Part shown: positions 7,321 through 63,000 of the stretch, piece by piece
How positions within the stretch are numbered: position 1 is the stretch's first letter
Layout: the number at the start of each line of letters is the position of its first letter
Assembly: GCA_963922205.1 (NCBI GenBank)
Contig: CAWUHX010000062.1
Span: 496,001-560,000, forward strand
Source of the DNA: Romanomermis culicivorax
Taxonomy: Eukaryota; Nematoda; Enoplea; Mermithida; Mermithidae
Direction of reading: 5' to 3'
DNA length: 64,000 nucleotides
Notes under the pieces: generated by a model
What the model was told of the DNA's origin: nothing
Database searches by the model: none
Seen by the model: the letters and a program-made list of their open reading frames with translations, nothing else
Made by a program: the position numbers and the translations under genes

Positions 7321-7541
7321 AGGCTTAGGCTTAGGCTTAGGCTTAGGCTTAGGCTTACGCTTAGCCTTTGGCCTAGGCTTAGCCTTAGGCTTAGGCTTAG
7401 GCTTAGGCTTAGGCTTAGGCTTAAGCTTAGGCTTACGCTTAGGCTTACGCTTAGGCTTAGGCTTAGCCTTTGGCCTAGGCTTAGGCTTAGGCTTAGCCTT
7501 AGGCTTAGGCTTAGGCTTAGGCTTAAGCTTAGGCTTACATT
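7321..7541 (+). repeat. Interstitial telomeric repeat, degenerate (TTAGGC)n
   Basis: About 36 hexamers of TTAGGC on the plus strand, the telomere repeat of chromadorean nematodes such as Caenorhabditis and Ascaris. Variants TTACGC, TTAGCC, TTAAGC and TTTGGCC are interspersed and partly arranged in a repeated order, so the block has been internal long enough to diverge and re-duplicate. Both strands stay open here only because the hexamer is a multiple of three. Confidence 0.93.
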
Positions 7542-9730: not shown

Positions 9731-9972
9731 AATACCTTTAATGTCGATATCCAACAAATAAGCATCAATCATCATCATCATCATGAACATTATTCGCTCG
9801 TTTCACAGGCTTGCATCCATGGCAAAAGCACGTGTTGTCCATGGCCCAATGACCCCGGCTGCTGCATGGCACAGTGATACTGTCTACTTTGTGGTAAGTC
9901 AGAGCCAAACAAATGTCATTGATGCAATGTCGTCTGCTATTTTGATCTGGAAATAAAAATAACATCAATGCT
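9731..9972. other. Short unique spacer between simple repeats
   Basis: Contains a short (CAT)n run near 9768 and balanced-composition sequence, then leads directly into the second TTAGGC array. The open frames across it are mostly repeat-encoded, and I do not support a gene here. Confidence 0.4.
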
Positions 9973-10171
9973 AGGCTTAGGCTTAGGCTTAGGCTTAGCT
10001 TGGGCTTAGGCTTAGGCTTAGGTTTAGGCATAGGCTTAGGCTTAGGCTTAGGCTTAGGCTAAGGTTTAGGCTTAGGCTTAGGCTTAGGCTTAGGCTTAGG
10101 CTTAGGCTTAGGCTTAGGCTTAGGCTTAGGCTTAGGCTTAGGCTTAGGCTTAGGCTTAGGCTTAGGCTTAG
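9973..10171 (+). repeat. Interstitial telomeric repeat, nearly pure (TTAGGC)n
   Basis: About 32 hexamers in the same orientation as the block at 7321. It is much more homogeneous, with fewer than ten variant positions (TTAGCTTGGGC, GGTTTAGGCA, GGCTAAGG). It abuts dispersed element C at about 10172 with the junction word TTAGGGGGTTTATACAAAGG. Confidence 0.95.
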
Positions 10172-11060
10172 GGGGTTTATACAAAGGAAGCTGCAATAGT
10201 TCTGACCACAGGCTAACAAAAACACAAAGACACCAAAACTCTCTCACACAGATTCTTGGATACCATCACCAGTACTTCACTAAACGTCAGGCAGAAAACC
10301 TGAGTACATACCTCCAGAGATCCTACCCAAGTCTCCAATCCTACTGTTAAAAATCGTTCCACTATGCTCACAAAACAATACAAGTTACCACCAGAACCCT
10401 GTATGGGGAATGAAGAGTGATGCCATCAATCATATAGCAAAATAAATATAGGGGTCGATGCAAAAACATATCGATAATCCAATAATGAAAAATAAACCAA
10501 AAACAGGCGAAACAGTAGCATCACAAATTTATGTAAATTTCTTCCTTGGGCCGTCTTGGTCTAGTGGTTATCACCTCTGACTGCTAGCCTCAAGAACCAG
10601 GTTGGATTCCGGGTGTAACCCAAAATTGAATTTCTGGTAGCTGGCCCAGGCAGACATCCTCTTGGAGTAGATAAAGTGTGTAGGCGAGCTTGGAACGCTG
10701 CTTGCAGGGGTCCACTCAGCCCAGTTAGCATGTTGGCGATAGTGCCACGAATGAGGAGGTAGGCCTATTCCATTATGAGGTAGGTAGCTGATCAAGTCCT
10801 GCTTGTAAGGTGATTGCCAGCCTGTGGAATGTGTCCTCCACTAGGTGGTAAAAAGCACCTGAAGAGCACCTCTCAAATAAGGTGGGCACTTATATGACCG
10901 TATAGTCCTGTAAAGCCAGCCTTTCCGGCTATAGGAAAATGGGTAAGTGTACCCGCAAAAATCTAAAAAAAAATTTGTTCTTTCTTTTCTGCCACTTTTC
11001 GCCGCCTCCACGGCTTGCGAGCTGAGCACATGCACCTACAGTAACCCTGACGAAAATTTC
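10172..11060 (+). mobile_element. Dispersed element C, copy 1, interrupted by a SINE
   Basis: The left part (10172-10545) matches 18595-18613 plus 19187-19370 and then 19962-20115: shared words include AAAGGAAGCTGC, GACCACAGGCTAACAAA, CCAAAACTCTCTCACAC, CAGTACTTCAC and CACAAAACA. The right part (about 10985-11060) matches 20110-20180 (GCTGAACACGTGCACC against GCTGAGCACATGCACC, then TACAGTAACC). The two parts are separated by the SINE at 10546. No coding capacity is seen, so the element is probably non-autonomous; its class is unknown. Confidence 0.75.
10546..10974 (+). mobile_element. tRNA-derived SINE nested in element C
   Basis: The head (10548-10621) is tRNA-like. It has a pol III A box (TGGTCTAGTGGTTA, like tRNA-Glu/Asp) and a B box (GGTTGGATTCC), though the cloverleaf is imperfect. 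A unique body of about 330 bp follows, ending in an A-rich tail (AAAAATCTAAAAAAAAA). The flanks AAATTTCTTCC on the left and AAATTTGTTCT on the right may be a diverged target-site duplication. Copy 2 of element C lacks this insert and so acts as the empty site. No other copy is in the window. Confidence 0.65.
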
Positions 11061-13109
11061 CTCAAAATCCAAAAGGTCAAATATCTGCTCAAAATCATAT
11101 CACTGCTATTAGATCAATGCTGAAAATATTCTTTAATGCTATGTGTGACAAAGTTGCGGAAGAAATTCCTGAAAAGGAACAAGTGAGCACTTTAAGCCAA
11201 ATTGAAGAAACTGAAGTCGGGAGATTAGATTGGCTGCTTCAAACTGGCCCGAACCAACTTAAAAATTGTAAGATTGTGATTTTGGAGCTGGGTGAACTGA
11301 TCTTACTAGTCACTGCAGCTTCCATCGCTCAATTGTCAACAATAAGTTGCTGAACAAATTTTTCCTGAACTGCATGCACAAAACGTATAAACTGAAGGCA
11401 TGAGGAGCCGAATGAGTAATACTCATACGCACACCTACCAAATCTCAAAGTACAGTAATTACCTTGCAATGGTTTACTACATGCGATGGGGTACATACCT
11501 GCAGTTGGCTTTCAACAATAGACACAAAATTACAAAATGGCATTAAATCAGCAGAAACACAATAACATCAGCGATGGACAATGCTCACCTTAATTCATCA
11601 ACAACATGTTACATTCCAATGAAATTATTTCTGTTGTAAAACACATGTCTGTGGCTGTTTCGTCTCTGCATATGCACTTTCAAATGCTGCACCCAACTTT
11701 AACCTACCCAACCATGAAGCAGCAGTGCCAAACAAATGCCTGCCTCATCACTGGGACAAACAAAAACTGAAATAGGCATTGAACCATATGACTGAATATG
11801 CCTTCTTTACACTCTTCAGTGGTAAGTGAAGGCCTTCTATATGCTTTGTCACGTGCTGATCAATTTTGCCCAACAGCACATGATTTACATCACGTTGATA
11901 CTTTATGTTTTTCGCCACTTTTTATTTGACAGTTACTTACATTTATTTTGTTTTGTTCATTTTGCTTTACATGTGTCATTTTGTTGCCTTTTGTTGTTTT
12001 TTCCATTCCACACGTAGCCTACAGTGTGACCCCTTTATTTAGAATTTCCGCTAGATAAGCTCTACGAGCTCATGAACATAATCGGAGCATCAGGTGCACC
12101 TCTTATCAGTAAAAACTAGCGACCATTTGCAACGCCAAATGACTAGTTTGGAAGTTCTCATTAAAAAATGTTTATATGTTTAGCATGGGAGTGAAAGTCA
12201 GTCCCAATGCCTAATGTATTCGAACTCGAAAATGTCTATGTGACCATAGGCATCTTCTGCACTGATTTCTGCTGCAAAAGTTAGCTTGAACATCATAAGC
12301 TCCACCCAGTCCATACTATAGGCCTACGAGGTCCTTAAAAGGACCTGTTTTGTTAGTTTTACGCTCATTCTCTGGGTTTTTCAGCTCACCTCCGAACTTA
12401 TACTTAATCTGTGTCCACCATCATTTATATTAAATAATAAATTTGAATATTCACATTTGACTTGTGCTTCCACGCTGAATTTACATATTCACTGCATCCA
12501 TTGCATCCGCTGCCCCGCCCATACAAAGAAAGAATACCCGTCACCCCTTAGCCCCTGGTCTACCCCCCTGTATGATACTAGAGCACCTCCTGAGTCACCT
12601 ACCCCCGGACCAAGTGGATCATTTACCCCCATTTGCTGACCGTCATCCACATCCACAGGGACCAGCCGCCCTTGTGCCAAATTGTACTTGAGAACATTAC
12701 TAGGTAAGTCTTCTCAGGGGATTATTGTTGTTGAGCCTGTTTGTGGAATTGGAGACATGGGTGGGATTTTCTCCATCACGAGTCACAGCGTCCTGCTCAG
12801 GACTTGAGGAGTTTCCGGGTGAGGTATCCTTGCACCCAGAGTCTCATCTGGCCATATACCCAGCCACCTTACAGTCATAACATATCATAGGTGCATTCTC
12901 TCAAATGCTGAAACAAGGTACAGTAATTTTAAAAAGTTCTTCAAATCCCGGGGGATTGGATACATTGACATCATCAGCATATTCCTAGTGAAGAAAAGTA
13001 ACATAAAATTTAATCAATTTTGTTGCCTGGCATAGTTTTAAGTTACCGTAGTTACTTTTGGTGAGGCAATAGAAGAATGCTGCCAATTCCAAACACTGAC
13101 ATATAAAGC
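11061..13109. other. Unassigned intergenic DNA upstream of the channel gene
   Basis: Balanced to AT-rich, apparently unique sequence. Short open frames at 11117-11353 and 12457-12639 (Pro/Ser-rich) resemble nothing I recognise. A small hairpin, AGGTCCTT-AA-AAGGACCT, lies near 12330. The stretch could hold an old retroelement remnant or upstream regulatory DNA of the gene starting at 13110, but I cannot show either. Confidence 0.4.
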
Positions 13110-13469
13110 ATGGTATCACTCAGCGGAATTGGTCGTGGTAGCAATATTAACATATTTAAAAATAAACTATCAAACAAGCATTTAAAGTTGAGCCGATGCT
13201 GTCATTGCCTACTAGTATCGACACTTATCTTGTTTAGTCTAGCCATCACTGCCGGAAACATCAAGCTCTATTTCAGTAACGCCATCAAAAATAAAATAAT
13301 TACCAATGTGGTAAAGCAACTAGAATTCCCGTCAATTACCATTTGTAATCAGTTGATAGCCAAACGTGTACCTACGTGCGAGATTCCAGCTTCCGGCTAT
13401 TTTTGGCGGTATTTTTCTCTATCGCCCAAGCTGGAAGGCGGCTTTTGGAGCAAAAAATTTGCCGACGAA
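13110..13469 (+). CDS. DEG/ENaC exon 1: N-terminus, TM1, FPSITICN
   Basis: 120 codons from ATG to GACGAA, followed by a perfect donor GTAAGT at 13470. It carries the cytosolic N-terminus, TM1 (HCLLVSTLILFSLAITAG) and the diagnostic FPSITICN. The usual N-terminal His-Gly gating motif is not evident, so an upstream exon cannot be excluded. Confidence 0.85.
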
Positions 13470-16400
13470 GTAAGTCATTTGAATTTTTTTTCAAGATAAA
13501 TGTTAGCTCTATTGCAAAACTGTGCATTCCTCGTACCCATTTCGACGATTATAAACCAAAATTTTCAATTTGTGGACAGAAAATGTGAAACAACATGCGA
13601 AAGTTTGGTGAAATGCTATTGCAGCCATCACAATGGGGGGGGGGGTTGAGTTATATTTGAGAATAAGTCGAGGCGTGGCAAGGAGAAAGGGATGGACTTT
13701 AATGCAAAAGATGGACTTTAATGCAAAAACCTTTGGTTTCCTAATTTGAATTCTCGATGCTTAACCAAAAGAGGGGACGTTTCTCCTATACAAATTTTAC
13801 ATGATAAACTGAAGAACTTACCCAACAATGGGAACAATTAGGAAAAATGGGCGGAGTTAAACAATGATGGATCCTAAAGGCACACTTAGCCCTGACTAAT
13901 ACGAAATATATATAATAACAAGAATGAACGCAGCTCAACTGCATGTGTACCGAATTTGTGCTACAGTAAGACACTTTGAAATGGTCCATTTTACCTGACA
14001 TACATGTTGTGACATACATGCCCTTTCAAAAAATGTGCCCGCATTAATATGTTCACACATGCGACATATGTGTTGCAGTGTGTTTTCCACCGATTTTCGT
14101 TATTTTGTCAAAGCACGTATGAGGCCCGCAGGTACCAAGTGGAGTGAGCAATGCGAACCATCAGCAGCCGTCTTACTGTAGCACACGTCGGTATGCGTTG
14201 CCCTGATCTCTCTCTATTATTATTATTATTTTTATTATTGTTACATGTTTGTGTACTAAACGTGCGCTCCATCGGCCACTACTATATTCGCCACTCGTGG
14301 CCTCCCACCAGGCAGCCTTTCTTTTTCTCGTCCTAGTGCATGGGAGTTAATCATTTATTTTTCTCGCCCGTTTCCATTTTGTACGTAAGCGTTCTTTGTT
14401 TATGCATAATATAAAGGTAGAAAATTCTCTCCTTTCTGTTTCACGCAATTAGGGAGACAATTAAGGAAAGCACCTATTCCTTAATTGATGGGATATTAGT
14501 GTCAGGTTTAAGTACAAGTAATTAAGTTCATCGGGTAAACGTGGGCGTGGGAAACACATACATTAAGGACGAACCCTGGAATCCCAATCCTGCCTGTGAC
14601 TCATCAGCGCCCGACTCAACAAGAAATACAACATATGCTATGACATACAGTGTGACATTTTCCACATCGGTACTGTTTTTCAATGTCAGAAAGAAAGTCT
14701 GTTGCCATTGTCGGTCTTTCCGTATTTTCAGCAAGCACGCAAATAGTACCAAAAGTTACGCTTTTCATCCACTAAAGTGAAAAAGCGAACTGTATGTCAT
14801 GTGCATGTTGCTCATATGTTGTACTCATTTCTTAATTAACATACATATGTCGCTTATATGTTGTGACGTGTATGTATTTTAGTGTATTTCCACCAATTTG
14901 TTGTTCATTCATATTTTTTGTCGATTTTTTGAAGAGGCCCGCAGGTATAAAGTGGAGTGAGCGACACAGACCATAGAGAGACGTCTTACTGTAGGGCATA
15001 TCGGCACGCGTGTGTTAGGGCTCTCTCACTATTGTTGTTGTTATAAAATTGTTATATGTATTGCATACTCGCCTGTTTCTTTGTGCGCCCGTCATTTTTG
15101 GGCTATTTTCCTTAGCACAATGGAGTGATTATATTCTTGACTGTCGAAATTTGTATTAGTAAGTTTTTCTTTGTGATTGGTAAAATTGGAGGAAATTCTC
15201 CTCATCTCTTTATATTTAATTGCAAGATGGACTAAGGGATCAGTTTTCCTTAGTCTGTGGGTAATTATTGTCGGGTATAAGTACATTAATTAAGTATTTA
15301 ATCGGGTAAGCGTGGCTGTTGGAAATACGTGCATTAAGGACGAATTCTGGAATCCCACTCCTGCCTCCTCTTTAAAAACCCCTGACCAAAATCAAATATA
15401 ACATATGTCAGGTATATGTTATCTCACCGTGTGAATCATCCTTAATTCTTGGCTCCTGTGTACCATACCAATTTATAACATGACAATAAATGTCAATTTT
15501 TGTTTAGTTTGCCAAATTTTGTCCATGCCCTAAAAATTACGACAAGCGTACGGTGGGGTTAGTATTGGAGAATTTAAAAAACGCCGACTTCTTCAAAGTT
15601 GTCAAAGAATACTGTCCATCTATTGATGATCAATTCGTCTTTTGCCAACTGTTTGGTAACCCGTCAAACTGCAGCGACCTATTCTCCCAAGTCATGTCTG
15701 ACATTGGATTGTGCGTAAATTTTAATGGAATGGATTTTGCACCCATTGCCAGCCACGCCTCTGATTTGGGTAAAAATTAAAATTTTCTTAATCTTGACCT
15801 AATTTCTTCAATTGTGCAATTTTTCTAGGAAAATTTGGAAGCTTTTTTAGTGCTTCAAAAGTTGGCGGGATAAAGGTTAATCGATCAAACATTCATTCCC
15901 TATTGACCATTGCTTTGAAAGTGAACAAGAAAGATTATTGCGGCAATTTGCGGAAATGGACTGGCGATGGATTCCATTACTCTGTTCATCAGCCAACCAA
16001 ACCCATACCTCTATATCTATTCAGCCACTTTCAGCTGAAGTTGCATGCTGGGTATATTTTCGATGTAGGAATCAAGGTAACGAACATCATTCGCCATACA
16101 GCCCACTTTGGTCGTTGCGTCAATAGATACTTAATGTTGCCGGGAATAGGTAGTTCGGGAATACCGTTCGATAAATCCATTTGCTTGGTTAGTTGCCTGG
16201 CAAAAGTGGTATATATTGAATGCCGCTGTTTCACCAGAACCATCGAGTCACTGGATTCAGTGTTCAGCACTGAAAATGTTGATTTAGATTACATAAATAT
16301 GTCTACACCTTGGTGTAGGACGAGCCCGGAAATGGATGCCTGCGACTCGAAGCACATTATGTTAGCACATGCCGACGAATTCATGTCTGCAACTTGCCCC

Positions 16401-16688
16401 AAATGCCTGCCTGTTTGCATAGAAACGGAATATTCCATGATGGTAAGCAGCAAGAAGCTAAGGCGTGCGCCACATTACATGCAAATTGACACTAATGTCG
16501 ATGACCTAATTGTCGCCAATTTTTTCGCTGATTCTTCCCTGGTCACTACTGTTTATGAAAATCCAGCTTTCACCACTGAGGATTTTGTTATCTATATTGG
16601 GAGCGTATTCAGTTTGTTTTTTGGTATATCTTATATTGCCATTTTGGAAGCAGTATTTAGATTTTTTATGTACATCAGGGGACTTTAG
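13110..16688 (+). CDS. DEG/ENaC (amiloride-sensitive) sodium channel subunit, possibly frameshifted
   Basis: Spliced gene of roughly 530 residues in four blocks: 13110-13469, about 13496-13607, 15508-15769 and 15829-16688. The product should be a two-pass plasma-membrane cation channel subunit acting as a trimer, with a large cysteine-rich extracellular loop. Visible signatures: TM1 at about residues 30-55; the post-TM1 motif FPSITICN (73-80; family FPAVTICN); GLCVNFN (family GLCYTFN); the cysteine cluster C-x3-C-x8-C-x-C; CLPVCIETEY (family CLPxC...Y); and TM2 ending SLFFGISYIAILE with the G-I-S selectivity-filter position. The TM2-distal tail is only about ten residues. Block 2 needs a one-base correction in the run AAAA at 13580-13583 to stay in frame. 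The gene is therefore either a recent pseudogene or carries a sequence error. The subfamily cannot be told from this sequence alone. Confidence 0.88.
13496..13607 (+). CDS. DEG/ENaC block 2 with apparent one-base frameshift
   Basis: Reading from ATA at 13496 gives about 29 codons (INVSSIAKLCIPRTHFDDYK, then PKFSICGQ) and a stop at 13586. If one A of the run at 13580-13583 is discounted, the frame continues as KCETTCESL, a typical cysteine-rich channel segment. It then reaches a phase-0 donor GTGAAA at 13608 that joins in frame to 15508. The gap to exon 1 (13470-13495) is only 26 nt although it starts GTAAGT and ends TTTCAAG. Without an intron, a one-base insertion in the T8 run would also keep the frame open. 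Confidence 0.6.
14072..14632 (+). mobile_element. TIR element family A, copy 1 (MITE-like)
   Basis: About 561 bp. It starts (T)GTTGCAGTGTGTTTTCC and ends AAATACAAC, so the termini form a short inverted repeat of the type TGTTGTA...TACAACA. ATATG flanks both sides as a probable 5-bp target duplication. The interior shares, with four other copies, CCCGCAGGTA-CAAGTGGAG, GTCTTACTGTAG, AGGGAGACAATTAAGGAA and ACATTAAGGACGAA. There is no coding capacity. Confidence 0.85.
14860..15402 (+). mobile_element. TIR element family A, copy 2 (MITE-like)
   Basis: Same family and orientation as the copy 230 bp upstream: GTTGTGACGTGTATGT... to ...CAAATATAAC, again flanked by ATATG. It carries GCCCGCAGGTATAAAGTGGAG, GTCTTACTGTAG, and GGTAAGCGTGGCTGTTGGAAA near the right end. 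Confidence 0.82.
15508..15769 (+). CDS. DEG/ENaC exon 3: GLCVNFN segment
   Basis: Acceptor TTTGTTTAG at 15507; the donor GGTAAAAATT leaves phase 1. It encodes FAKFCPCPKNYDKRTV at the start and DIGLCVNFNGMDFAPIAS near the end. GLC-[VY]-x-FN is a DEG/ENaC hallmark of the extracellular loop. Confidence 0.85.
15829..16688 (+). CDS. DEG/ENaC exon 4: cysteine-rich loop, TM2, stop
   Basis: Acceptor TTTTTCTAG at 15828, phase 1, running to TAG at 16686-16688. It carries the conserved Cys ladder (GRCVNRY, ICLVSCLAKVVYIECRCF, WCRTS, CPKCLPVC), the segment YSMMVSSKKL after the CLPxC motif, and TM2 (FVIYIGSVFSLFFGISYIAI). Internal GTAA words at 16078 and 16443 are read through, because the family motifs continue across them. 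Confidence 0.88.
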
Positions 16689-16984: not shown

Positions 16985-17170
16985 GTTGAGAGTGGCCAAA
17001 GCAGCCACCTCAACTACGAATTGTTGCAAAAAGAGAGCGCCTTTCCTGCTGCTCGGTTGGTTCAGTTGGTTAGAGCGTGCGGACGGTAGCCGCAAGGTCC
17101 TGGGTTCAAGTCTCAGACCGAGCCTAACTTTTACTGAAGCCCGAGTGGTGGGAAAAGGTTGTCACAACAA
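16985..17170 (+). mobile_element. Composite tRNA-like element, copy 1
   Basis: A 5' module of about 65 bp precedes a 73-nt tRNA-like cloverleaf and a short 3' module (CTAACTTTTACTGAAGCCC, GTGGTGGGAA). The same three modules occur inverted at 27925-28115, with high identity across all of them. The 5' module starts with a hairpin: GTTGAGAGTGGC, loop CAAAGCA, GCCACCTCAAC. An internal pol III promoter suggests a SINE, but the upstream module is unusual for a simple tRNA SINE. Confidence 0.75.
17051..17123 (+). tRNA. tRNA-like cloverleaf, loop ACGGTAG (would-be anticodon GGT)
   Basis: All four helices pair. Acceptor GCTCGGT/ACCGAGC is perfect, D stem GTTC/GAGC has one G-U, anticodon stem TGCGG/CCGCA is perfect, and T stem CTGGG/CTCAG has one G-U with loop TTCAAGT. 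The 7-nt anticodon loop ACGGTAG has C instead of the invariant U33, and GGU is not a normal eukaryotic tRNA-Thr anticodon. I read it as the tRNA module of a repeat, not a working tRNA. Confidence 0.4.
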
Positions 17171-27924: not shown

Positions 27925-28115
27925 ACATGTTGAGGCAACCTCTTCCCACCACTCAGGGCTTCAGTAAAAGTTAGGCTCGGTCTGGGACTTGAACACAGGA
28001 CCTTGCGGCTACCGTCCGCACGCTCTAACCAGCTGAGCCAACCGAACAGCGGGAAAGGCGCTCTCTTTTTGCAACAATTCGTAGTTGAGGTGGCTGCTTT
28101 GGCCACTCTCAACAG
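27925..28115 (-). mobile_element. Composite tRNA-like element, copy 2
   Basis: Reverse complement of the element at 16985-17170, including the 5' hairpin module (28078-28112), the tRNA-like module (27975-28047) and the 3' module. The tRNA-like part keeps loop ACGGTAG and its anticodon stem unchanged. One T-stem pair is lost (CTGTG against CCCAG), and the acceptor still pairs (GTTCGGT/ACCGAGC with a G-U). Confidence 0.75.
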
Positions 28116-36061: not shown

Positions 36062-39000
36062 GTAAAATTTACAAACTTTACACTACAGGTTTAAATTTTA
36101 ATTTTTTTTGTAATATATACAGTACGCCAACGATATTATCGTGACGTACGTTAAATTAGAAGCCGAAAATTTGAAAAATAACCGATCGGCAACATTGTGC
36201 GCTAATTATCAACCTTTGGACGATTTTCGGCGACCTAATTTCGTAAGTTTTACACTTTACACCACAATTTTAGTGTAAAAATTTAGTGTAATCTGTAAGT
36301 TTACACTATAAACTTATCCGGTAGTGTAATTTTGAAAATATCGGTTCCGGGTCCGGATCCGAAATTTTGAAAATATCGGGTTCGGGTCAGGATCCTATAA
36401 AATTAATCGGGTAATTCCGGATTTGTCCCGGGTCCGAAATTTTAAAAGCATCGGGTCCGGATCCAGCAAAATTAATAGGGTAATTCCGGCTCTTGTTCCG
36501 GATCCGAAATTTTAAAAGCATCGGGTCCGGGTCCGGATCCAAAAAAATTAATCGGGTAATTCCGGATTTTTCCCGGGTCCGAAATTTTGAAAATATCGGG
36601 TTCGGGTCCGGATCCAACAAAATTAATAGGGTAATTCCGGCTCTTGTTCCGGATCCGAAATTTTAAAGCATCGGGTCCGGGTCCGGATCCAACAAAATTA
36701 ATCGGGTAATTCCGGATTTGTCCCGGGTCCGAAATTTTGAAAATATCGGGTTCAGGTCCGGATCCAACAAAATTAATAGGGTAATTCCATCTCTTGTTCC
36801 GGATCCGAAATTTTAAAGCATCGGGTCCGGGTCCGGATCCAACAAAATTAATCGGGTAATTCCGGATTTGTCCCGGGTCCGAAATTTTGAAAATATCGGG
36901 TTCAGGTCCGGATCCAACAAAATTAATCGGGTAATTCCGGCTCTTGTTCCGGGTCCGAAATTTTGAAAGCATTGGGTCCGGATCCGGATCCAACAAAATT
37001 AATAGGGTAATTCCGGCTCTTGTTCCGGGTCCGAAATTTTAAAGCATCGGGTCCGGGTCCGGATCCAACAAAATTAATAGGGTAATTCCGGCTCTTGTTC
37101 CGGATCCGAAATTTTAAAGCATCGGGTCCTTGTCCGGATCCAACAAAATTAATCGGGTAATTCCGGCTCTTGTTCCGGATCCGAAATTTTAAAGCATCGG
37201 GTCCGGGTCCGGATCCAACAAAATTAATAGGGTAATTCCGGCTCTTGTTCCGGGTCCGAAATTTTAAAAGCATCGGGTCCGGGTCCGGATCCAACAAAAT
37301 TAGTCGGGTAATTCCGGATTTGTCCCGGGTCCGAAATTTTTAAAATATCGGGTTCAGGTCCGGATCCAACAAAATTAATAGGGTAATTCCGGCTCTTGTT
37401 CCGGGTCGGTCCGAAATTTTAAAAGCATCGGGTCCGGGTCCGGATCCAACAAAATTAATCGGGTAATTCCGGATTTGTCCCGGGTCCGAAATTTTGGAAA
37501 TGTCGGGTTCGGGTCCGGATCCTACAAAATTAATCGGGTAATTCCGGATTTTTCCCGGGTCCGAAATTTTGAGAATATCGAGTTTGGTTCCGGGTCAAAT
37601 TTGATCGGGTAACTCCGGGTTTTGTTCCGGTTCCACCTGTCCGACACCTACATTTCAAAGTTTACTGTAGAATTTTTTTTTCGCTCTTGCTAGTCCAAAT
37701 ACATTTTGGACACGGAATCGTCGGAAGGAGATTTTTGCCGGGACGAAAGCGCCGAAAATTTCCGAGGCCGGATTTTAGTCGCACGTTTCCGGTCCCGTTG
37801 GCTTTTTCCGTTGACGTTAGCGTGCGTACGAAACGTTCAACGTCAAAACGGGTCGGCGATTATTTTATTGGTAGAAAATTTGGTGAGCGAAATATTTTAA
37901 ATTTAAAAAAATTTAAAAGTTTAAAAGAATGTTTAAATTTTTACATTTTTGGGGTAAAATTTTAGAATTTTATTTTGAAAATTCTAATTTTTTGAATTTT
38001 GTTTCGAAAATTCTAATTTTAGAATTTTTGTCGATTTTCAAATTTTGAAATTCTAAAATATTATTTTGATAATTCAAATTTTAGAATTTTATTTTGGAAA
38101 TTCTAATTTTTTTTTTAAATTTTTCAAAAATTTTTTTTGGAATTTTCGACATTTTGAAAGTTTCGAATTTGAAAATTTTATTTTGAAAATTCTAATTTGA
38201 GAACTTCATTTTGAGAATTCAAATTTTAGAATTTTAATTTAAAAATTCTGATTTTTAGAATTTTATTTTGGAAATTCTAATTTTTAGAATTTTATTTTAA
38301 ACATTCTGATTTCTTGAATTTAATTTCGAAAGTTCAACTTTTAGAATTCCATTTTGAAAATAAAATTTGAGAATTTTTTTCGAAATTCAATTTTGAGAAT
38401 TCTATTTTAAAAAGTTTAATTTTAAAATTCCGTTTTTAATATTCAAGTTTGACAATTCTATTTTGAAAAGTTTAATTTGGAAATTCCATTTTAATATCCA
38501 AATTTGACAATTTTGTTTCGAAGATTCTAATTTGAGAACTATTTTTTGAAAATTCAAATTTTAGAATTTTATATAAAAAATACTAATTTGAGAATTTTAT
38601 TCTGAGACTTTTCATTTTTCAATTAAAATTTTAAAAATTCCAATTTTTCGAATTTCGTTTTGAAAATCCTAATTTTAGAATTTTATTCTGAAAATTTGAA
38701 TTTTAGAATTTTGTTTTGAAGATTCTAATTTGAGAACTTCATTTTGAGAATTCAAATTTTAGAATTTTAATTTAAAAATACTGATTTTTAGAATTTTATT
38801 TTGGAAATTCTAATTTTTAGAATTTTATTTTAAACATTCTGATTTCTAGAGTTTTCGTTTAACTTTTAGAATTCCATTTTGAAAATAAAATTTGAGAATT
38901 TTTTTCGAAATTCAAGTTTGACAATTCTATTTTAAAAAGTTTAATTTGAAAATTCTATTTTAATATTCAAATTTGACAATTTTGTTTCGAAGATTCTAAT

Positions 39001-51000: not shown

Positions 51001-54000
51001 TTTTCTCCATTTTTTTTTGTGTAATGTGTATTTCATGGTATTTGGGTTATTTTCTCACTGGATGAAATTCGTTTTTCATTTTGTTCACGCAGCGTTGGTG
51101 GTTCAGTGGTAGAATGCTCGGCTGCCACGCGGGCGACCCGGGTTCGATTCCCGGCTAACGCAATTTTTTTTTTAATCTCAAAATGTTCAAAAATTACAGA
51201 TTATTAGCAAATTCTGCGAACGTCGAATCGCCGTCGACTACATTGAACGAACAGCAGGATAAAAAAGATTTACAAACCACGCCAATTAATTGGATTACAT
51301 TATGTTGCTGGTTGATGGTCGTCGTCACAGTTTTATTATTGTCGTATTATTTTTTCGATATTTTAGGTAAGATTTTTTTTTTGTAATTTTTTAAAAATTT
51401 TTTTGTAAATTTTTTAAAAATTTTTTGTAAATTTTTTTAAAAATTTTTCGTAAATTTAAAAAATTTTTTTTTTGTAAATTTTTCCCAAAAAACTTATCAA
51501 TTTTCTAAAAATTCTGTTGTAATTTTTCCTTAAAATCTTTTTTTATATTTTTCTCTAAGAATTTTGTAGTAAATTTTTCAAAATTTTTTTGAAACTTTTC
51601 TCTCAATTTTTTTTCAAAAAATCTTTTTGTGAATTTTCTAAAAATTCTATTGTAAATTTTTGCTAAATTTTTTTGTGTAAATTTTTCCTAAAATTTCTTC
51701 CAAGAATTTTATTGTAAATTTTTCCTAAAATTTCTTCCAAAAATTTTATTGTAAATTTTTCAAAAATTTTTTCTGGAAATTTTTCCCAAAAAACTTTTTG
51801 TCAATTTTCTAAAAATTCTGTTGTAATTTTTCCTTAAAATCTTTTTTTATATTTCTTTTCCAAGAATTTTATAGTAAATTTTTCAAAAATTTTTTTGAAA
51901 CTTTTTTCTCAATTTTTTTTCAAAAAATTTTTTTGTGAATTTTCTAAAAATTCTATTTTAAATTTTTGCTAAATTTTTTTGTGTAAATTTTTTCTAAAAT
52001 TTCTTCCAAGAATTTTATTGTAAATTTTTCAAAAATTTGTTTGGAAAATTTTTTCTCTATTTTTTCCAGAATACTTTTTGTTGAATTTTCTAGAAATGTT
52101 TTGTGAATTTTTTAAAAGTTTCTTGTAAATTAAAAAAAATTTTTTTTGTAAATTTTTTAAAAATTTTTCCTGCAAATTTTTTTGAAATTTTTTCTGAAAA
52201 TTTTTCCCAAAAAACTTTAGGTCAATTTTTTAAAAATTCTGTTGTAATTTCTCCTTAAAATCTTTTTTTATATTTTTTTCTAAGAATTTTATAGTAAATT
52301 TTTCAAAAATTTTTTCGAAACTTTTTTCTCGATTTTTTTTCAAAAAATCTTTTTGTGAATTTTCTAAAAATTCTGTTGTAAATTTTTGCTAAATTTTTTT
52401 GGGTAAATTTTTCCTAAAATTTCTTCCAAGAATTTTATTGTAAATTTTTCAAAACTTTGTTTGGAAAAATTTTTCTCTATTTTTTCCAGGATACTTTTTG
52501 TTGAATTTTATAAAAAATTTTTGTGAATTTTTTAAAAGCTTTTTGTAAATTTTTTTAAAAATTTTTTAAAAATTTTTTCTGTAAATTTTTTTGAAATTTT
52601 TTCAGAAAATTTTTCCCAAAAAAACTTTCTGTAATTTTTCTAAAAATTCTGTTGTAATTTTTCCTTAAAATCTTTTTTTTATATTTTTTTCTAAGAATTT
52701 AATAGTAAATTTTTCAAAAAATTTTTTGAAACTTTTTTCTCAATTTTTTTTTCAAAAAATCTTTTTGTGAATTTTCTTAAAATTCTGTTGTAAATTTTTG
52801 CTAAATTTTTTTGTGTAAATTTTTCCTAAAATTTTTTCCAAGAATTTTATTGTAAATTTTTCAAAAATTTGTTTGGAAAATTTTTTCTCCATTTTTTCCA
52901 TAATACTTTTTGTTGAATTTTCTAAAAAATTTTTGTGAATTTTTAAAAGCTTTTTGTAAATTTTTAAAAAATTTTTTTGTAAATTTAAAAAAAATTTTTT
53001 TTTAAATTTTTTAAAAATTTTTTCTGAAAATTTTTCCCAAAAAACTTTTTGTCAATTTTCTAAAAATTCTGTTGTAATTTTTCCTTAAAATCTTTTTTTA
53101 TATTTTTTTCTAAGAATTTTATAGTAAATTTTTCAAAAATTTTTTTGAAACTTTTTTCTCAATTTTTTTTTCAAAAAATTTTTTTGTGAATTTTGTAAAA
53201 ATTCTGTTGTAAAATTTTGCTAAATTTTTTTGTGTAAATTTTTCCTAAAATTTCTTCCAAGAATTTTATTGTAAATTTTTCAAAAATTTGTTTGGAAAAT
53301 TTTTTCTCTATTTTTTCCAGAATACTTTTTGTTGAATTTTCTGAAAATTTTTTGTGAATTTTTTAAAAGTTTTTCGTATATTTTTAAAAAATTTTTTTGT
53401 ATTTTTTAAAAAATTTTTTCTGAAAGTTTTTCCCAAAAAACTTTCTGTGAATTTTCAAAAAATTCTGTTGTAATTTTCTCTCAAAATCTTTTTTTATATT
53501 TTTTTCTAAGAATTTTATAGTCAATTTTTCAAAAATTTTTTTGAAACTTTTTTCTCAATTTTTTTCAGAAAACTTTTTGTGAATTTTGTAAAACTTCTCT
53601 TGTAAATTTTTCCTGAATTTTTTTTTTGTAAATTTTTCTTAAAATTTTAGTTTTTAAATTTTTTCTGAAAATTTTGTAAATTTTTGAAAATTTTTTTTGT
53701 CAATTTTTGTAATTTTTCTTTTCTTGTCTTAATTTTTCCAATAATTTTTTTTGTAAATATTTTTGTTTTTGGTTTTTTCTTTTGTTTTCTTGTTTTTTTT
53801 CTTCCGTATTTTGTTTTTTGTTTCTTTGTTTTGTTTTTTGCTTTTTTCTTTTCCTTTTGGTTTTTTCTTCTATTTTTTGTTTCTTCCTTCTTCCTTCTGT
53901 TTTTTGTTTCTTTGTTTTGTTTTTTGTTCTTTTTCTTTTCCTTTTGGTTTATTCTTTTATTTTTTCTTCTGTTTTTTCTTGTGCGTTTTGTTTTTGGTTT

Positions 54001-57000
54001 TCCCTTTTGTTTTTTTGTTTGTTCCTTTTGTTTTTTGTTTCTTTGTTTGTTTCTGCCTTTTCCTTTTTTCTTTTTCTTTTCCTTTTGGTTTTTTCTTTTA
54101 ATTTTTGTTTTTTGTTTTTTCTTCTGTTTTTTCTTGTGTTTTTTGGGTTTTCCTTTTTGTTTTTTTTTGTTTTTGGATTTTTATTTTGTTTTTTGTTTTT
54201 TCTTCTGTTTTTGTGTCTTTGGTTTTTTCTTTTGGTTACTTGTTTTTTCTTCTCCTGTTTTTCATTTTTCATCTGTTTTTTGTTTCTTTGTTTTGTTTTT
54301 TGCTCGTTTTTTCCTTTCCTTTTCGTTTTTTTGTTTTTTGTTTTTTCGCTTGTTTTTTATTGTGTCTTTTGTTTTTTGTTTTTCTTTTCGATTTCTTGTT
54401 TTTTCCTTTTGTATTTTATTTTTTATTTCTTTTGTTGTTTGTTTGTTTTCTCTGCATTTTTTTTCTTTTTTTTTCCCTTTTGATTTTTGTTTTTTGTTTT
54501 TTCTTCTGTTTATTCCTGTGTTTTTTTGTGTTTTCTTCTTTTTGTTTTTTTTTGATTCGGTTTTTTTGTTCTTGGATTTTTCTTTTGTTTTTTGGTTTTT
54601 TCTTTCGACTCTTTTTTTCTTGGTTTCTGTTTTTTGTTGTTTATTTTTTTTTTATTTTTCTCTGTTCTTGGTTTATTTTTTGTCTTTGTCTTTTGCTTTT
54701 TTGTTTTAGTCTTCTGTCTTCTTGGTTTTCTGTGGTTTATTTTTTCTTTCAATTTTTGTTTTTTTTAGTTTTTAGTTTTTTCTCTTGTTTTCTTTTTGTT
54801 TTTGGTTTTCTTATTCCACTTTTTTCTTTTTTTCTTGTTTTTTTTTATTTTCTCTTTTAATTTTTGTTTTCCCTGTTGTTTTTGCCCTTTTTTGTTTCTT
54901 TTTTCTTTTATGTTCGTTTTTTTGTTTTTTTTTCATTTCTGTTATTCTTGTTTTCTTTCTTCTTTATTCCTTTTTTCAAATTTTAAATGTTTTCTTTTTT
55001 GGTTTGGTTTTTCTTTTTTTGTTTTTGTTTTTTTTTGTTTTCTTGTTTTTTTTTCTTTTGTTTTTGGTTTTTTCTTTCGACTCTCTTTTTTTCTTGTTTC
55101 TTCGTTTTTTTCTTTTTCGTTTTTTCTTCGTCTTTTAATTTTTGTTCTTTCTGTTGTTTTTGTTTTTCTTTGTTCTTTTCTTTTGTTTTTGTTTCCTATT
55201 TTTTGTCTTGTATTTTGGTTTTTGGTTTTTTCTTTTGTTTCTTGTTTTATTTCTTTTGTTTTTATTTTTTTTTTCTTTTTTTTTTCTTTTTTTGTTTTTC
55301 TTTTGTTTTCCTGTTTTGTTCTTTTGTTTTTCTTTTGTTATGTACCAATTTTTTTGTTTTTCTGTTTTTTTCATTCCTATTTTCTGTTTTTTGTGTTTTC
55401 TTTTGTTTTTTGTTTTTTCTTTCTTGTTTTTTCTTTGTTCTTTGTTTTTCTTTTGTTATGTACCAATTTTTTTGTTTTTCTGTTTTTTTCATTCCTTTTT
55501 TCTGTTTTTTGTGTTTTCTTTTGTTTTTTGTTTTTTCTTTCTTGTTTTTTCTTTGTTCTTTTTTTTAATTCTGAAATTTTTAATTTTTAGTTTGGTTTTT
55601 CATCCTATCGTTCACTTGGGCGTGCATTTTCGCCACATACGCTTGTATAAATTTCTTATGGCTAAAATTGATTGGTCGAAATTTCGACGGCGTCAGGTTA
55701 GAATTTTTGCGTTTTTCTATTTTTAGAATTTTGCGTCTTACTGTAGAATTTTTTTCTACAAGGTTAAACTTGGGTCCGGCGATTAGAAAATTTTGTCGTT
55801 GTTTCGATTGGTCGCATGTCGAAGATTATCGATTGATTTACAGTATTCGAGAAATTATTTTGGCATCTATATGCGTTACAATCTGCGTTGCTTGGTGTAT
55901 TTTACGTAAAGAATAGTGAGTGATTTTTGAAAATTTTAGAATTTTATTAAAAAATTCGAATTTTTGAATTTTATATAAAAATTTCCAATTTTGAATTTTA
56001 TTCTAGCAATTTTAATTTTTAGAATTTTGTTTGAAATTTTTTAATTTTTAGAATTCTTTTCTGAAAATTCTAATTTTTAGGGTTTCATTTTGAAAATTCT
56101 AATTCAATAATTTTTTTTCAAAATTTAAATTTCGAAAATTCTAATTTTAGATTTTTATTTTATGAAATTTCTAATGTTGGAAGTTGTTTTTCAAAAATTC
56201 TAATTTTTCAAAATTTTATTTTGGAAATTATAATTTATTTCAAAAATTTAGAAATTTCAGAATTTTGTTCTGTTAATTCTAATTCAAAAATTTTATTTTT
56301 GAACATTCTAATTCAAGAATTTTATTTTTGAAAATTCTAATTGTTATAATTGTACTTTGAAAATTTGAATTTGAGGATGTTCAGAATTGAAAATTTTATT
56401 TTGGAAATTCTAATTTTTAGAGATTTATTTTGGAAATTGTAATATTAAATAGTAAATACGTAAAAATAGTGATTCATTTTTAAAAATTTTAGAATTTTAT
56501 TTAAAAAAATTTTAATTTTAAAAATTCTAATTTTAAAAATTTCATTTTGAAATTCTAATTTTAGAATTTTTTTCTGGAAATTGTAATTTTTTGAATTTTA
56601 TTTGAAAATTCTAATTTTTCGTAATTTTATTTTGAAAAATCCTAATTTCGGAATTTGATTTTGAAAAGTATAATATGCAAATATTTTTAAAACTGAAATT
56701 TTTAGAATTGTGTTCTTAAAATTTTATTCCGAAAATTCGAATTTGAGAATTTTTTTTTAAATTGTAATTTTGGAATTTGTTTTTGAAAATTTCTTATTTA
56801 AAAATTTTCTTTTCGGAAATTATAATTTTCGAATTTTGGTGTCAAAAATTCTAATTTTTAAAATTTCGTATTAAAAATTCTAATTTTGAGATTTTGTTGC
56901 AATTTGGAAGTCTTACTTTGAAAGATTTTAATTTTAGAATTCTATTTTGAAATTTCATAATTTTCGGATTATATTCTGAAAATTAAAATTTTAGTATTTT

Positions 57001-60000
57001 GTGTTTGAAAATTTAAATTTTGGAACTTCATTTTAAAAATTTCGAATTTGAGAATTTTATCGAAAAAATTCTATATTTTAGTATTATATCCTCAAAATTC
57101 CACAATTTGAAGAATATTCCATTGGAAATTATAAAATTTTAGAATATTCTGAAAATGCCAAAATTTTAGAGTATTCTAAAAATTGTCAAATTTGAGGATA
57201 TTGTAAAATTTTAGAATTTTAGAATATTGAGAAAATTCTAAGATTTCGGAATATTGTAAAAATGTTAAAATTTTATAATATTCAAAAAATTCGAAAATTT
57301 TAGAATATTGTTAAAATTTTAGAATTTACGCCTATTTCAGCTACGCTAATTACGTTCATTTGGCGTTGGGTATTCTATTTTGCATCTATTTGATCGCCAG
57401 TATTCGTTTGGGCAGTTTAAAAGTGAGAAAAATCGCTTTACACTTTTCTTACTGTAGTAATACTGTATATATTTCTTCTTTTCGTTGCAGTGGGCCACTT
57501 ACCTATTAAGCGCCATGTTCATTTACGATATGTTTATGGTTTACATTACGCCGTATTTTTCTTCCAACGTTAGTAACTTTACAACAGGCGTTAGTTTACA
57601 CTTTACGTCATAACTTTACACTTCATATCACGCGTTACATTACACTTTACACCACAGCTCCACCCCACGTCACAACTTTACATCACACTTATACACTTGA
57701 CGCCACAACTTTACACTTTACATCGCACTTTACCTTCAACTTTAAACTTTGCACACTTTACACTATAGTTTATACCTAAAAACACAACTTCACATTTTAC
57801 ATCTCAACTTTACACTTTACATCGCCCTTTACACTCAACTTTTAACCTTGCACTATAACTGTAAACTTTACACTATAGTTTACACCTAAAACACAACTTC
57901 GCATTTTACATCGTTATAACTTACGACTTTACATTATAACTTCGCACTTCACGCCACAATTTTACATTGTACATCTCAACTTTACACTTTACATCGCACA
58001 TTACTTTACTTTACACTTCACTCAACTACTTTACACTTTACTTGAGCACCTACCTTACAGGTTTACATAACATTTTACACCACAACTTTACACCTCACAC
58101 AACCACTTCACACCACAACTTTACACGTCACGTCACAATTTTACACTTTACACCACAACTGAACACTTCACGCAATAACTTTACACTTTCAACAACAACT
58201 TTACACTTTATATTACAACTGTACACATCGCGCCACAACCTGCACATTACACCACAATTTTACACTTCGCGCCACAACTTTACACTTGTCACCACAATTT
58301 TACATTTTATCCCAGAACCATTCACTTCACATCACGCCTTACTTTTTACTTTACACCACAACATTACACTCTACACCACAACTTTACACCCTAAACTACA
58401 ATTGTACACTTCACATGAAAATTTTACACCTCACTTTATAACTCCACACTTTACACCACGAGTTTTTCACACTTTACACCACAACTCCACACTTTACAAT
58501 ACGCGTCTTTCTTACTTTACATCACAACTTTACACTCTAGGGTTGCAGCGTTATGGTCGAAGCGGCGACGGGCCGGCCGTGCGACAACAGCGACTACACG
58601 CCCGGCCCGCCCGACCGTTCCAAAGAAAGGGTAACATGCCAAGTGTAAAGTGCAGTTTAAACTTTGACAGTGTAAACTTTACACTCTAGATTCCGGTCGT
58701 CTTTTGGATACCGGATTTTTTGGATCCGATGATTTCGTGTTACAATTTAACGACGGACGTGCAATATCCGACCGGTATGCTCGGATTCGGCGATGTTCTA
58801 GTTCCGGGTTAGTGTAAAGTTAGTTCAAACTCGTAAAGTTACTCTAATTTCGTTGTAAAGTTATTCTAAACCAGTTGAAAGGTTACTTCGAATTCTTCGT
58901 AAAGTCACATTAAACTTGTGGCAAATTACTTTGATCTTGTTTCAAAGTTACTTAGAGCTCGTTAGAAAATTGCTTTACATTCGTTGTAAAGTAACTTTAA
59001 ACTCGTTGTAAAAATATATTAAGCTAGTTGTAAAGTTGCTTCAAACGCCTGGTAAGGTTGTTCACACTGGTTGTAAAGTCACTTCGAAGTCATTGTAAAG
59101 TTACTTTGAACTCCTCGTAAAGTTACTTTAAACCCGTTGTAAAGTTACATTAACCTAGTTGTAAACTTACTCCAAACTACTGGTAAAGTTCTTCTAACTC
59201 AATGTAAAGTTATGCTGAACTCATTGTAAAGTTACTTCAAACCCGTTGTTAAGTTACATTAAACTCGTTGTGAAGTTACTTTGAACCTGTTGTAAAGTTA
59301 TTTCAATCTTGCTGTAAGGTTATTTTAAATCCGCTCTGAACTTACTTTCAACCTGTTGTAAAGTTACCCTAAACTCGAGTTACTGTAAATTAGTTGTAAC
59401 GTTACTTTGTAAATGTTGTAAAGCTACTTTAGACTCGTTGCAAAGTTACTTAAATTCTTTGTAAAGTTACTTCAAACTCGTTGTAAAGTTACTTAATATT
59501 CTTTGCGAGGTTACTTTAAACCTGTTGTAAAATTGGTTTAAACTCTAGCTAGAGTTATTCTAGGCTTGTTGTACAAGGAGTTTAAACTTGTTGTAAAGTC
59601 ACTTTAAATCTATTGTAAAGTTACCCTAAACTAGTTGTAAAGTTATTCTAAACTAGTTGTAATGTTACTTTGAAAATATTGTAAAACTACTTTAAACTCC
59701 ATGTGAAGTTACTTCTAATTCTTTGTAAAGTTACTTCAAACTCGTTGTAAAGCCACTTTAAATCTGTTGTAAAGTTACCCTAAACTAGCTGTAAAGTTAT
59801 TCTAAACTAGTTGTAATGTTACTTTGAAAATGTTGTAAAACTACTTTAAACTCCATGTGAAGTTACTTCTAATTCTTTGTAAAGTTACTTTAAACTAGTT
59901 GTAGAGTCACTTTAAATCTGTTGTAAATTTAACCTAAACTAGTTGTAAAGTTACTCCAAAATAGTTGTAATGTTACTTTGAAAATGTTGTTAAGTTACTT

Positions 60001-63000
60001 TAAAATCGCTGTTAAGTTACTCTTATACTATTGTAAAGTTATTTTAAACCTGTAAAGTTACCTCAAGCTTTTTTTATAGTTGGTAATTTTAAACTTGTTG
60101 TTAAGTTACTTCTCGCGGTAAAGTTACTTCTAACTCATTGTAAAGTTACCTCAAACTTTATTGCATAACGTTACTTTATACTCGTGGTAAAGATACTTTA
60201 AACTTATTGTAAAGTTACTTTAAACCCGTTGTAAAGTGGCTTCAAACTCATTGTAAAGTTACTCTAAAATATTTGTAATGTTACTTTGAAAATGTTGTAA
60301 AGTTACTTCAAACTCGATGTAAAGTTACTCTTATACAGTTGTAAAGTTACATTAAACCTGTAAAGTTACTTCAGGCTTTTTGTGTAGTTAGTAATTTTAA
60401 ACTTGTTGTAAAGTTATTCCGAACTCGTGGTTAAGTTACTTTAAACTCGTTGTAGAGTTACTTTAAACTCCTTGTTGAGTTACTCTAAACTCTTTGTGAG
60501 GTTAGTTCAAACTCGTTGTAAAGTCACTCCTAATTTGTCGTTAAGTCACTTTGAACTTGTAGTAAAAGTAGTTTAAACTCGTGTTAAAGTTACTTTACAC
60601 TCGTTGTGAAACTTCTTTAAACTCATTGTAAAGTTACTTCAAATGCATTTTAAAGTTAATTCAAATTCATTGTAAATGTAAAGTTACTTCAAACTTGTTT
60701 TAAAGTTATTCTAAACTCGTTGTAAAGTTACTTAAAACTCGTTGCAAATTGATGGTGTAAACTAACTTTTAGGTTTATTAATCGGCTTCAATTGCGCTTT
60801 CGATTTAACATGGAAAGTTAAATATCACGTCTATTTTTGCGTAGCTATCGTCGGTGAGTTTACATTTTTCCTTTGTTGTAAACAAACTTTACACCCAAAA
60901 TATGCAAATTTTTTTTTAACGCAGGTTACACCGTAGGATTGATGTTGACCGACGCGGCCTTGATTTTAACTTCCAAAGCTCAACCGGCTTTGGTCTTTTT
61001 GGTCCCATGCCTGCTGATTCCCACCCATCTAACGGCGTTGCTCAAGGGTCAATGGTGGGAAATGTGGAATGGAAAAATGGTGATTAAATTGAAATTTTTA
61101 TTTTTTTGAATTCGAAATTCTAAAATTTCTAGTGAAATTCTATTCTCATTAATCCAGATTTTTCCGATTCGAAATTCTAAAATTTTAACCGGAATTCTGT
61201 TCTTGAAAATCGAAATTTTCAAATTTTCGACTCGAAATTCCAAATTTGCAGTGCAATTCTGTTTTTAAAAGTTGAAATTTTGCATCTTTCGACTCGAAAT
61301 TCCAAATTTTGCAGCGAAATTCTAAAATTTTCAGGGAAAATCTCTTATTAAAAGTTCAAATTTTGAATTTTCGACTCTAAATTCCACAATATTCTGTCGA
61401 AATTCTTCAACTTTCAGTGAAATTCTGCTTTGAAGATCGAAATTTTGAATTTTTCCGTTAGAAATTCTAAAATTTCTAGTAAAATTTTATTCTCAAAATT
61501 CGAAATTTGGAATTTTCTCATTCAAAATTCTGAAAATTTTTAGTGAATTTTTGTTGTCGAGAAACGAAATTTAGAATTCTTCGAGACGAAATTCTGAGAC
61601 TTTGCAGCGAAATTCTGTTCTCAGTAGTCGAAATTTTGAATTTTTCGACTCGAAATTCTGTTTATATCTCGAAAAAGTGTGAATTCTGTCTCGGTAGTCT
61701 TGAATGTTTTTTTGAATTTTGGGCTGAAATTCCATTCTCAAAAACTGAAAATTTGAATTTTTCGACTCGAAATTTTAAAATTTTTTTAAAATTCTGTTCT
61801 TGAAAGTCAAAGCTTTGAAGTTTTCGACTCAAATTTTAAAAATTTCAGTGGAATTCTGTTCTCGAAAATCGAAATTTTGAATTTTTCCACTCGGAATTCC
61901 AACATTTTCAGTGAAATTATATTCTCAAAAATCGATATTTGAACCTTTACACTCGAAATTCTAAAATTTTAACCAGAATTATATTTTTGAAAATCGAAAT
62001 TTTCAAATTTTCGACTCGAAATTTTAAAATTTCTAATGGAGTTCTGTTCTCGAAAGTGGAAATTTTGAATTTTTCAATTCGACTTTCCAAGATTTTCAGT
62101 GAAATTCTGTTGGTTAATGTTGGAATTTTGAATTTTTCGACTCGAAATTCTAAAAATTTATAGTGAAATTCTATTCTCGAAAATCGAAATTTTGAACCTT
62201 TCGACTCGAAATTCTCAAATTTTAATCGGATTTCTGTTCTTGAAAATCGGAAAATTTCAAACTTTCGTCTCGAAATTCTAAAATTTCTAGTGAAATTGTG
62301 TTCTCGAAAGTGGAAATTTTGAATTTTCCACTCATGATTCTAAGATTTTCATTGAAATTCAGCTATTAAATCTTGAAATTTTGGATTTTTTCGACTCGAA
62401 ATTTTGAAAATTCCTAGTGAAATTCTAATCTCAAAATTCGAAATTTTGAACTTTTCAATTCAAAATGCTAAAATTTTAGCTGCAATTCTGTTCTTGAAAA
62501 TCGAAATTTTCAAATTTTCGACTCGAAATTATCAAATTTTTCAATGAAATTATGTTCTTAAAAGTCGAAGCTTTGAAGTTTTCGACTCAAAATTCTAAAA
62601 TTTTCATTGGAATTTCGTTCTCGAAAATCGAGGTTCTGAAATTTTGGATTCGAAATTCTAAGATTTTCAGTCGAATTCTGTTATTGAATGCTGGAATTTT
62701 GGATTTTTCGACTCAAAATTCTAAAATTTTAACCCGAATTCTGTTGAAAATCGAAATTTTCAAATTTTTGACTCTAAATTCTAAAATTTCTAGTGAAATT
62801 CTGTTCTCGAAAGTATAAATTTTGAATTTTTCAAATCGAAATTATAGGATTTTCAGTGAAACTCTGTTGGTTAAAGTTGGAATTTTGAATTTTTCGACTC
62901 AAAATTCGTAAAATTTATAGTGAAATTCTATTCTCAAAAATCGGAATTTTGAATTTTTCGACTCGAAATTCTCAAATTTTAATCGGATTTCTGTTCTTGA

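Follow-up and report, generated by a model that had tools for sequence, protein, structure and literature searches.

Two long arrays of short words, written in opposite senses, fill introns 10 and 12 of a gene for an SPPL2-type intramembrane protease in the mermithid nematode Romanomermis culicivorax, and the question raised by this locus is whether their complementarity forms a splicing switch acting on the enclosed exons 11 and 12. The window, that is the whole stretch of DNA analysed here, comprises 64,000 nt of the forward strand of contig CAWUHX010000062.1 (positions 496,001 to 560,000; assembly GCA_963922205.1). It was originally predicted that the two arrays could pair in the transcript and loop out exons 11-12, favouring back-splicing, exon skipping or adenosine-to-inosine (A-to-I) editing. 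The explanation preferred here, with a probability of about 0.72, is that two arrays of a dispersed word family grew separately and became complementary through a shared core and opposite sense, with no dedicated splicing function; the match is short and not special to introns 10 and 12, and most likely reflects a dispersed repeat family rather than a built-in splicing switch. The observed basis for this consists of the opposite senses of the two arrays, their unlike unit lengths, their shared core, the finding of the family in either sense at other loci, the lack of a long inverted match between the arrays, and the lack of arrays at these positions in the two most similar paralogs.

The gene and the features on which the argument turns are as follows.

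36005-63967, forward strand: SPPL2-type protease gene, 15 exons joined by eye from splice signals, 585 amino acids
57491-57568, forward strand: exon 10
57569-58540, forward strand: intron 10, 972 nt, a degenerate array with a period of about 20; CTTTACA 29 times in sense and 0 in antisense; only 5% G
57573-57588, forward strand: 5' arm of a 16-nt exact complementary match, beginning at base 5 of intron 10
58541-58630, forward strand: exon 11, 90 nt, encoding SVMVEAATG; the frame is kept if it is skipped alone
58631-58689, forward strand: intron 11, 59 nt, with the word in both senses (TTTACAC once, GTGTAAA twice)
58690-58807, forward strand: exon 12, 118 nt, with the GFGD motif aligned to the GFGD of SPPL2A in PDB 9k92
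58808-60772, forward strand: intron 12, 1965 nt, a degenerate 22-nt array; TGTAAAG 38 times against CTTTACA twice
59352-59367, forward strand: 3' arm of the 16-nt exact complementary match, in intron 12
60773-60853, forward strand: exon 13

Nine of the introns are long (972-4959 nt) and five are short (59-71 nt). The exon/intron coordinates of the original prediction proved correct, and joining the 15 exons yields a 585-amino-acid frame without interruption. Its product holds a Peptidase_A22B domain (PF04258, E 7.8e-57) and matches SPPL2A chain 9k92_A (E 4.1e-42), with the YD, GFGD and QPAL motifs, located in exons 10, 12 and 14, respectively, all aligned. SPPL2-type intramembrane proteases are classed by their YD, GxGD and PAL motifs, and the presence of all three together with the Peptidase_A22B domain places the host gene in this class. 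Loss of both exons 11 and 12 (90 + 118 = 208 nt) would, as claimed, shift the frame and remove GFGD. Introns 10 and 11 end in the same 14 nt (58527-58540 and 58676-58689; ACTTTACACTCTAG), and a tRNA-Gly (GCC) gene lies within intron 5 at 51092-51162 (forward strand), in the sense of the host gene and 37 nt upstream of the intron end.

The words around exons 11-12 run in opposite senses, as had been stated, and for the 9-mer this holds without exception: all 14 copies of AACTTTACA in intron 10 are in sense, and all 31 in intron 12 are in antisense and appear as TGTAAAGTT. The description of the two arrays as exact reverse complements applies to this 9-mer but not to the repeat units, with a length of 20 nt in the first of these introns and 22 nt in the second, in agreement with autocorrelation peaks at 20 and 22 and with the main rows reported by Tandem Repeats Finder (TRF), namely a 20-nt unit in 19.5 copies (58104-58498) and a 22-nt unit in 88.3 copies (58813-60748). 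When one mismatch is tolerated, 34% of intron 10 is covered by AACTTTACA (46% once CACTTTACA is added) and 28% of intron 12 by TGTAAAGTT, which makes "built from" these words a fair expression given the degeneracy of the arrays. With tandem units in the range of about 10-60 nt inside introns, both arrays can be described as intronic minisatellites. What they have in common is a core of 8-9 bases and not a unit, the consensus around this core being unlike in the two introns (...cacaACTTTACACtac... in intron 10 as against ...AAGTAACTTTACAAcgAg... in the complement of intron 12). Because each array is strand-coherent and the two run in opposite senses, the RNA of introns 10 and 12 is complementary at the core words. 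Both arrays share one short core (ACTTTACA) belonging to a word family that is scattered over the genome and recurs in several further introns of the locus. In the mechanism favoured here, each array would have started from seed words that its intron contained beforehand and expanded through slippage and tandem duplication, with a sense presumably set by chance and with no dedicated role in splicing.

Opposite senses and a shared core would also be expected if one array were an inverted duplicate of the other, yet the unlike unit lengths (20 vs 22) and the unlike bases around the core speak against such an origin. The best opposite-sense match between the two introns extends over just 16 nt (16/16, 30.1 bits, vs 25.4 ± 1.9 and a maximum of 29.2 in 12 shuffles; intron-by-intron BLAST comparison at word size 9). 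A genome search with intron 10 gave 27 matches including itself, placing relatives (E<=0.001) on 7 further contigs, and returned no part of intron 12 among its 13 candidates, all scored, with very common words skipped; a search with intron 12, run with the same skipping, returned only itself (1 candidate, scored). These searches would count as supporting rather than decisive evidence against an inverted copy. Taken with unit length and flanking bases, they led to the rejection of this origin, the likelihood of which appears negligible.

Turning to the pairing itself, 162 complementary stretches of at least 10 nt were counted between introns 10 and 12, while 200 double dinucleotide shuffles averaged 15.1 and never exceeded 35. 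The longest exact match, at 16 nt, falls within the range of the shuffles, which reach 17. Cofolding of the two introns gains -95.0 kcal/mol and produces 367 cross pairs, a number that is less telling than the energy gain in these models and lies within the shuffled range (mean of 314 in double shuffles, one of the 32 reaching it with 379). Part of the pairing is a matter of composition: intron 10 is rich in C (31%) and poor in G (5%), has little self-structure (-51.8 over its 972 nt) and so pairs with whatever holds G. The original prediction presupposed a fold of 57491-60853 not dominated by pairing within each array. This is borne out by the unrestricted minimum-energy fold from exon 10 to exon 13, with 353 pairs between introns 10 and 12 and 343 within intron 12, but not by folds of limited span, in which self-pairing of intron 12 dominates: at 1500, 600 and 200 nt there are 178, 29 and no cross pairs, respectively, as against 489, 580 and 592 pairs within intron 12. 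The longest cross helix measures 13-14 bp. Helices of this length are short for the needs of double-stranded RNA binding in A-to-I editing, and editing in introns 10 and 12, with predicted helices of at most 13-14 bp, looks unlikely.

In a fold from exon 8 to exon 15 (8205 nt), the 353 cross pairs are kept, enclosed by 291 pairs between introns 8 and 14, although single minimum-energy folds at such lengths are unreliable and ignore the order of transcription. An outer stem of introns 8-14 and an inner stem of introns 10-12, considered together with the spread of the word in both senses through short and long introns of two neighbouring genes, might be taken to mean that array content tunes the inclusion of the active-site exons; as a reading of modelled folds, this seems very improbable.

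The preferred explanation of two separately grown arrays draws support from the other partners available to intron 10. The next gene downstream encodes a Tim10/DDP-type protein (PF02953), and its first coding intron and the stretch upstream of it are filled with the same words in both senses. Cofolding of intron 10 with this first coding intron gains -120.9, as compared with -95.0 for intron 12, and with the array upstream of the next gene -86.0 (both cut to 1965 nt), and complementary 10-mers between intron 10 and the next gene's arrays occur at 190.0 and 332.0 per million position pairs, both above the 155.5 found for intron 12. Array segments elsewhere in the genome share 10-mers with intron 10, in either sense, at 228-1307 per million position pairs, 11 of 11 exceeding the value for intron 12; these are the main array blocks from 11 of 20 stretches on 7 contigs, five of them on C451, all chosen for holding the word, with further blocks in L022, L024, L031 and L032 left out and those of the next gene (L016) compared apart. 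Within the SPPL2-type gene, complementary 10-mers are denser between introns 3 and 14 (302.8), 8 and 14 (265.8) and 3 and 8 (199.0) than between introns 10 and 12, and longer complementary matches are found between introns 3 and 8 (60.8 bits), between introns 8 and 14 (47.3 bits) and inside single introns (up to 109 bits). The match between introns 10 and 12 is not preferred over other partners, as our own definition of a pair of reverse complementary matches (RCMs) would demand.

The wider distribution of the words is in line with a dispersed family. All nine long introns resemble word arrays, a description based on TRF rows for introns 2, 3, 4, 10, 12 and the first part of 5, and on sequence and frames inspected by eye for introns 6, 8, 14 and the rest of 5. 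Words other than that of introns 10 and 12 are shared, in the same sense, between introns 5 and 6 (639 bits), 3 and 8 (416 bits) and 2 and 4 (113 bits). The intron 3 family has matches in both senses on at least 30 other contigs and at least 102 matches including itself, judged from 39 scored out of 719 candidates. At other loci, chosen by the word, CTTTACA arrays are mostly of one sense each and either sense is found, with sense/antisense counts such as 78/0, 0/92 and 0/126. Two of the stretches examined, L025 4301-7600 and L029 3001-6800, appear by eye as near-identical gene-plus-array segments with slight differences in copy number, and represent either a recent duplication or uncollapsed haplotypes.

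Comparison with paralogs points in the same direction. The genome contains 13 PF04258 matches on six contigs, that of the window included, among which a recent duplicate of the SPPL2-type gene was sought and none was found. The two closest paralogs, on C181 and C33, are 53% and 49% identical in the exon that matches best; the comparison covered these two, the matches on C111 and C136 being more distant and C8 being left out. In the C181 paralog, introns 10-12 are absent, a single exon covering the interval that here begins inside exon 10 and ends where exon 13 starts, and in the C33 paralog the three positions carry introns of 60, 415 and 101 nt (ends placed by eye), all three of which lack TTTACAC and GTGTAAA. 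The arrays of introns 10 and 12 are thus without counterpart at these places in the C181 and C33 paralogs.

A number of observations, set out here and in the discussion of cofolding below, weigh against separate growth of arrays with no splicing function. Paralogs at about 50% identity say little about the needs of this gene and are weak evidence; the array loci elsewhere were located via the word and are no random sample; and if the next gene were co-transcribed with the SPPL2-type gene, its arrays would have to be counted as competitors and not as outsiders. Moreover, TTTACAC or GTGTAAA is present in four of the five short introns (59-71 nt), where about 0.01 would be expected in each, and the growth of long arrays does not account for this. 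The four introns are listed below.

36062-36122, forward strand: short intron with TTTACAC/GTGTAAA
57423-57490, forward strand: short intron with TTTACAC/GTGTAAA
58631-58689, forward strand: short intron with TTTACAC/GTGTAAA (intron 11)
60854-60924, forward strand: short intron with TTTACAC/GTGTAAA

The same 7-mers recur at the start of intron 2 and, with three copies where about 0.01-0.02 would be expected, in a short intron (73 nt) of the next gene, and the word fills the next gene's arrays. Such a distribution would suit ACTTTACA words acting as cis elements, bound as DNA or as RNA and kept in many introns, for which orientation would be irrelevant and complementarity a side effect. We know of no factor that binds the ACTTTACA word, its 7-mer is missing from the three C33 paralog introns, and the same pattern would be expected if array sequence had spread from intron to intron; a cis-element function is considered unlikely.

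Among the five short introns, intron 7 (55697-55762) is the only one with a predicted fold far better than shuffles (z -4.0, 0/200). A predicted hairpin beside the acceptor of intron 11 was considered as a splicing device and rejected, 25 of 200 shuffles folding at least as well (z -1.28).

The cofolding controls also tell against the preferred explanation. The gain of -95.0 exceeds that of all 32 double shuffles (-69.4 ± 10.7, best -90.4; z -2.4) and of all 12 shuffles of intron 10 only (-46.6 ± 5.9; z about -8), and intron 10 written backwards, a control of unchanged composition and spacing in which the complementarity is lost, reaches just -20.7 with intron 12, with 137 cross pairs. The complement of intron 10 gains -58.3 (353 cross pairs); reversal of both arrays, which gains -85.9, preserves complementarity and is no control, and nothing is drawn from it. 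Since backwards intron 10 gains so little and the shuffles gain less, the complementarity of introns 10 and 12 is sequence-specific and not mere composition. Introns 10 and 12 form, in addition, the strongest hybrid among the five pairs cofolded within the gene, the four others, cut to 972 and 1965 nt before cofolding, gaining far less (introns 8-14, -21.9; 10-14, -15.1; 2-4, -5.8; 8-12, -5.1), although the low gain of introns 8 and 14 fits their strong self-complementarity. Introns 10 and 12 can accordingly be predicted to pair, as originally proposed, and to do so beyond chance in the models used, which is the first property expected of an intronic RCM pair.

If the arrays were RCMs in the functional sense, pairing in the pre-mRNA would draw the ends of exons 11-12 close to each other and lead to regulated back-splicing or skipping. 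A precedent is offered by Caenorhabditis elegans zip-2, in which deletion of matches of 7 and 13 nt in the flanking introns strongly lowers the levels of circular and skipped transcript alike (PMC8330042). The arrays resemble these C. elegans RCMs in that complementary stretches flank an exon block and are similar in length (7 and 13 nt in zip-2 vs 16 nt here). Unlike the one or two sites described for zip-2, they consist of many short array matches, and whereas the 13-nt match of zip-2 is conserved in five species, the match of introns 10 and 12 is absent from the two compared paralogs (PMC8330042). The better partners that intron 10 has in the next gene and elsewhere in the genome, the longer complementary matches in other intron pairs and single introns, and the shrinking of cross pairing under span limits make regulated splicing by these arrays improbable. 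The looping and back-splicing interpretation is partly supported; by analogy, weak pairing in the transcript, perhaps with traces of circular or skipped RNA as a by-product, is possible.

Parallels to the two arrays are also offered by other repeat systems. Like CeRep25B of C. elegans (PMC4039745), the family comprises short tandem arrays that are mostly intronic, contain a word and its near reverse complement, and cluster in the genome, whereas CeRep25B is palindromic or nearly so and the arrays of introns 10 and 12 each keep to a single sense; CeRep25B is approached more closely by the next gene's intron, which has GTGTAAAGTATTCAAGTTTACACC units. Long simple-repeat introns within an intact reading frame recall the Y-linked satellite introns of Drosophila kl-3 and kl-5, which extend over megabases rather than kilobases (PMC6508621); the units are degenerate here, and neither sex linkage nor spermatocyte expression is implied. 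A literature search did not find complementary arrays in this gene, and their absence from print is not claimed. Were the pairing used, it would show that diverged tandem arrays can be a source of the paired introns behind circular RNA formation. As a caution, dispersed intronic word families can readily yield neighbours of opposite sense, and any assessment of complementarity should take other arrays, and not just shuffles, as its yardstick. The locus is convenient for asking how one word reaches so many introns.

Other features of the window lie upstream of the SPPL2-type gene.

7321-7537: interstitial array of the six-base unit TTAGGC
9972-10172: second interstitial TTAGGC array
13107-16688, forward strand: pieces of an amiloride-sensitive sodium channel gene (DEG/ENaC, PF00858)
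17051-17124, forward strand: tRNA-Thr-like sequence
27974-28047, reverse strand: tRNA-Thr-like sequence

The two interstitial arrays are about 2.4 kb apart, and their units were given as AGGCTT and TAGGCT. Arrays of the TTAGGC type had suggested a nematode, but a search for the 22-base spliced leader SL1 gave no exact match in the genome. Neither TTTACAC nor GTGTAAA occurs within the DEG/ENaC coordinates. Both tRNA-Thr-like sequences were called by ARAGORN and not by Rfam at gathering score, and are possibly tRNA-derived repeats.

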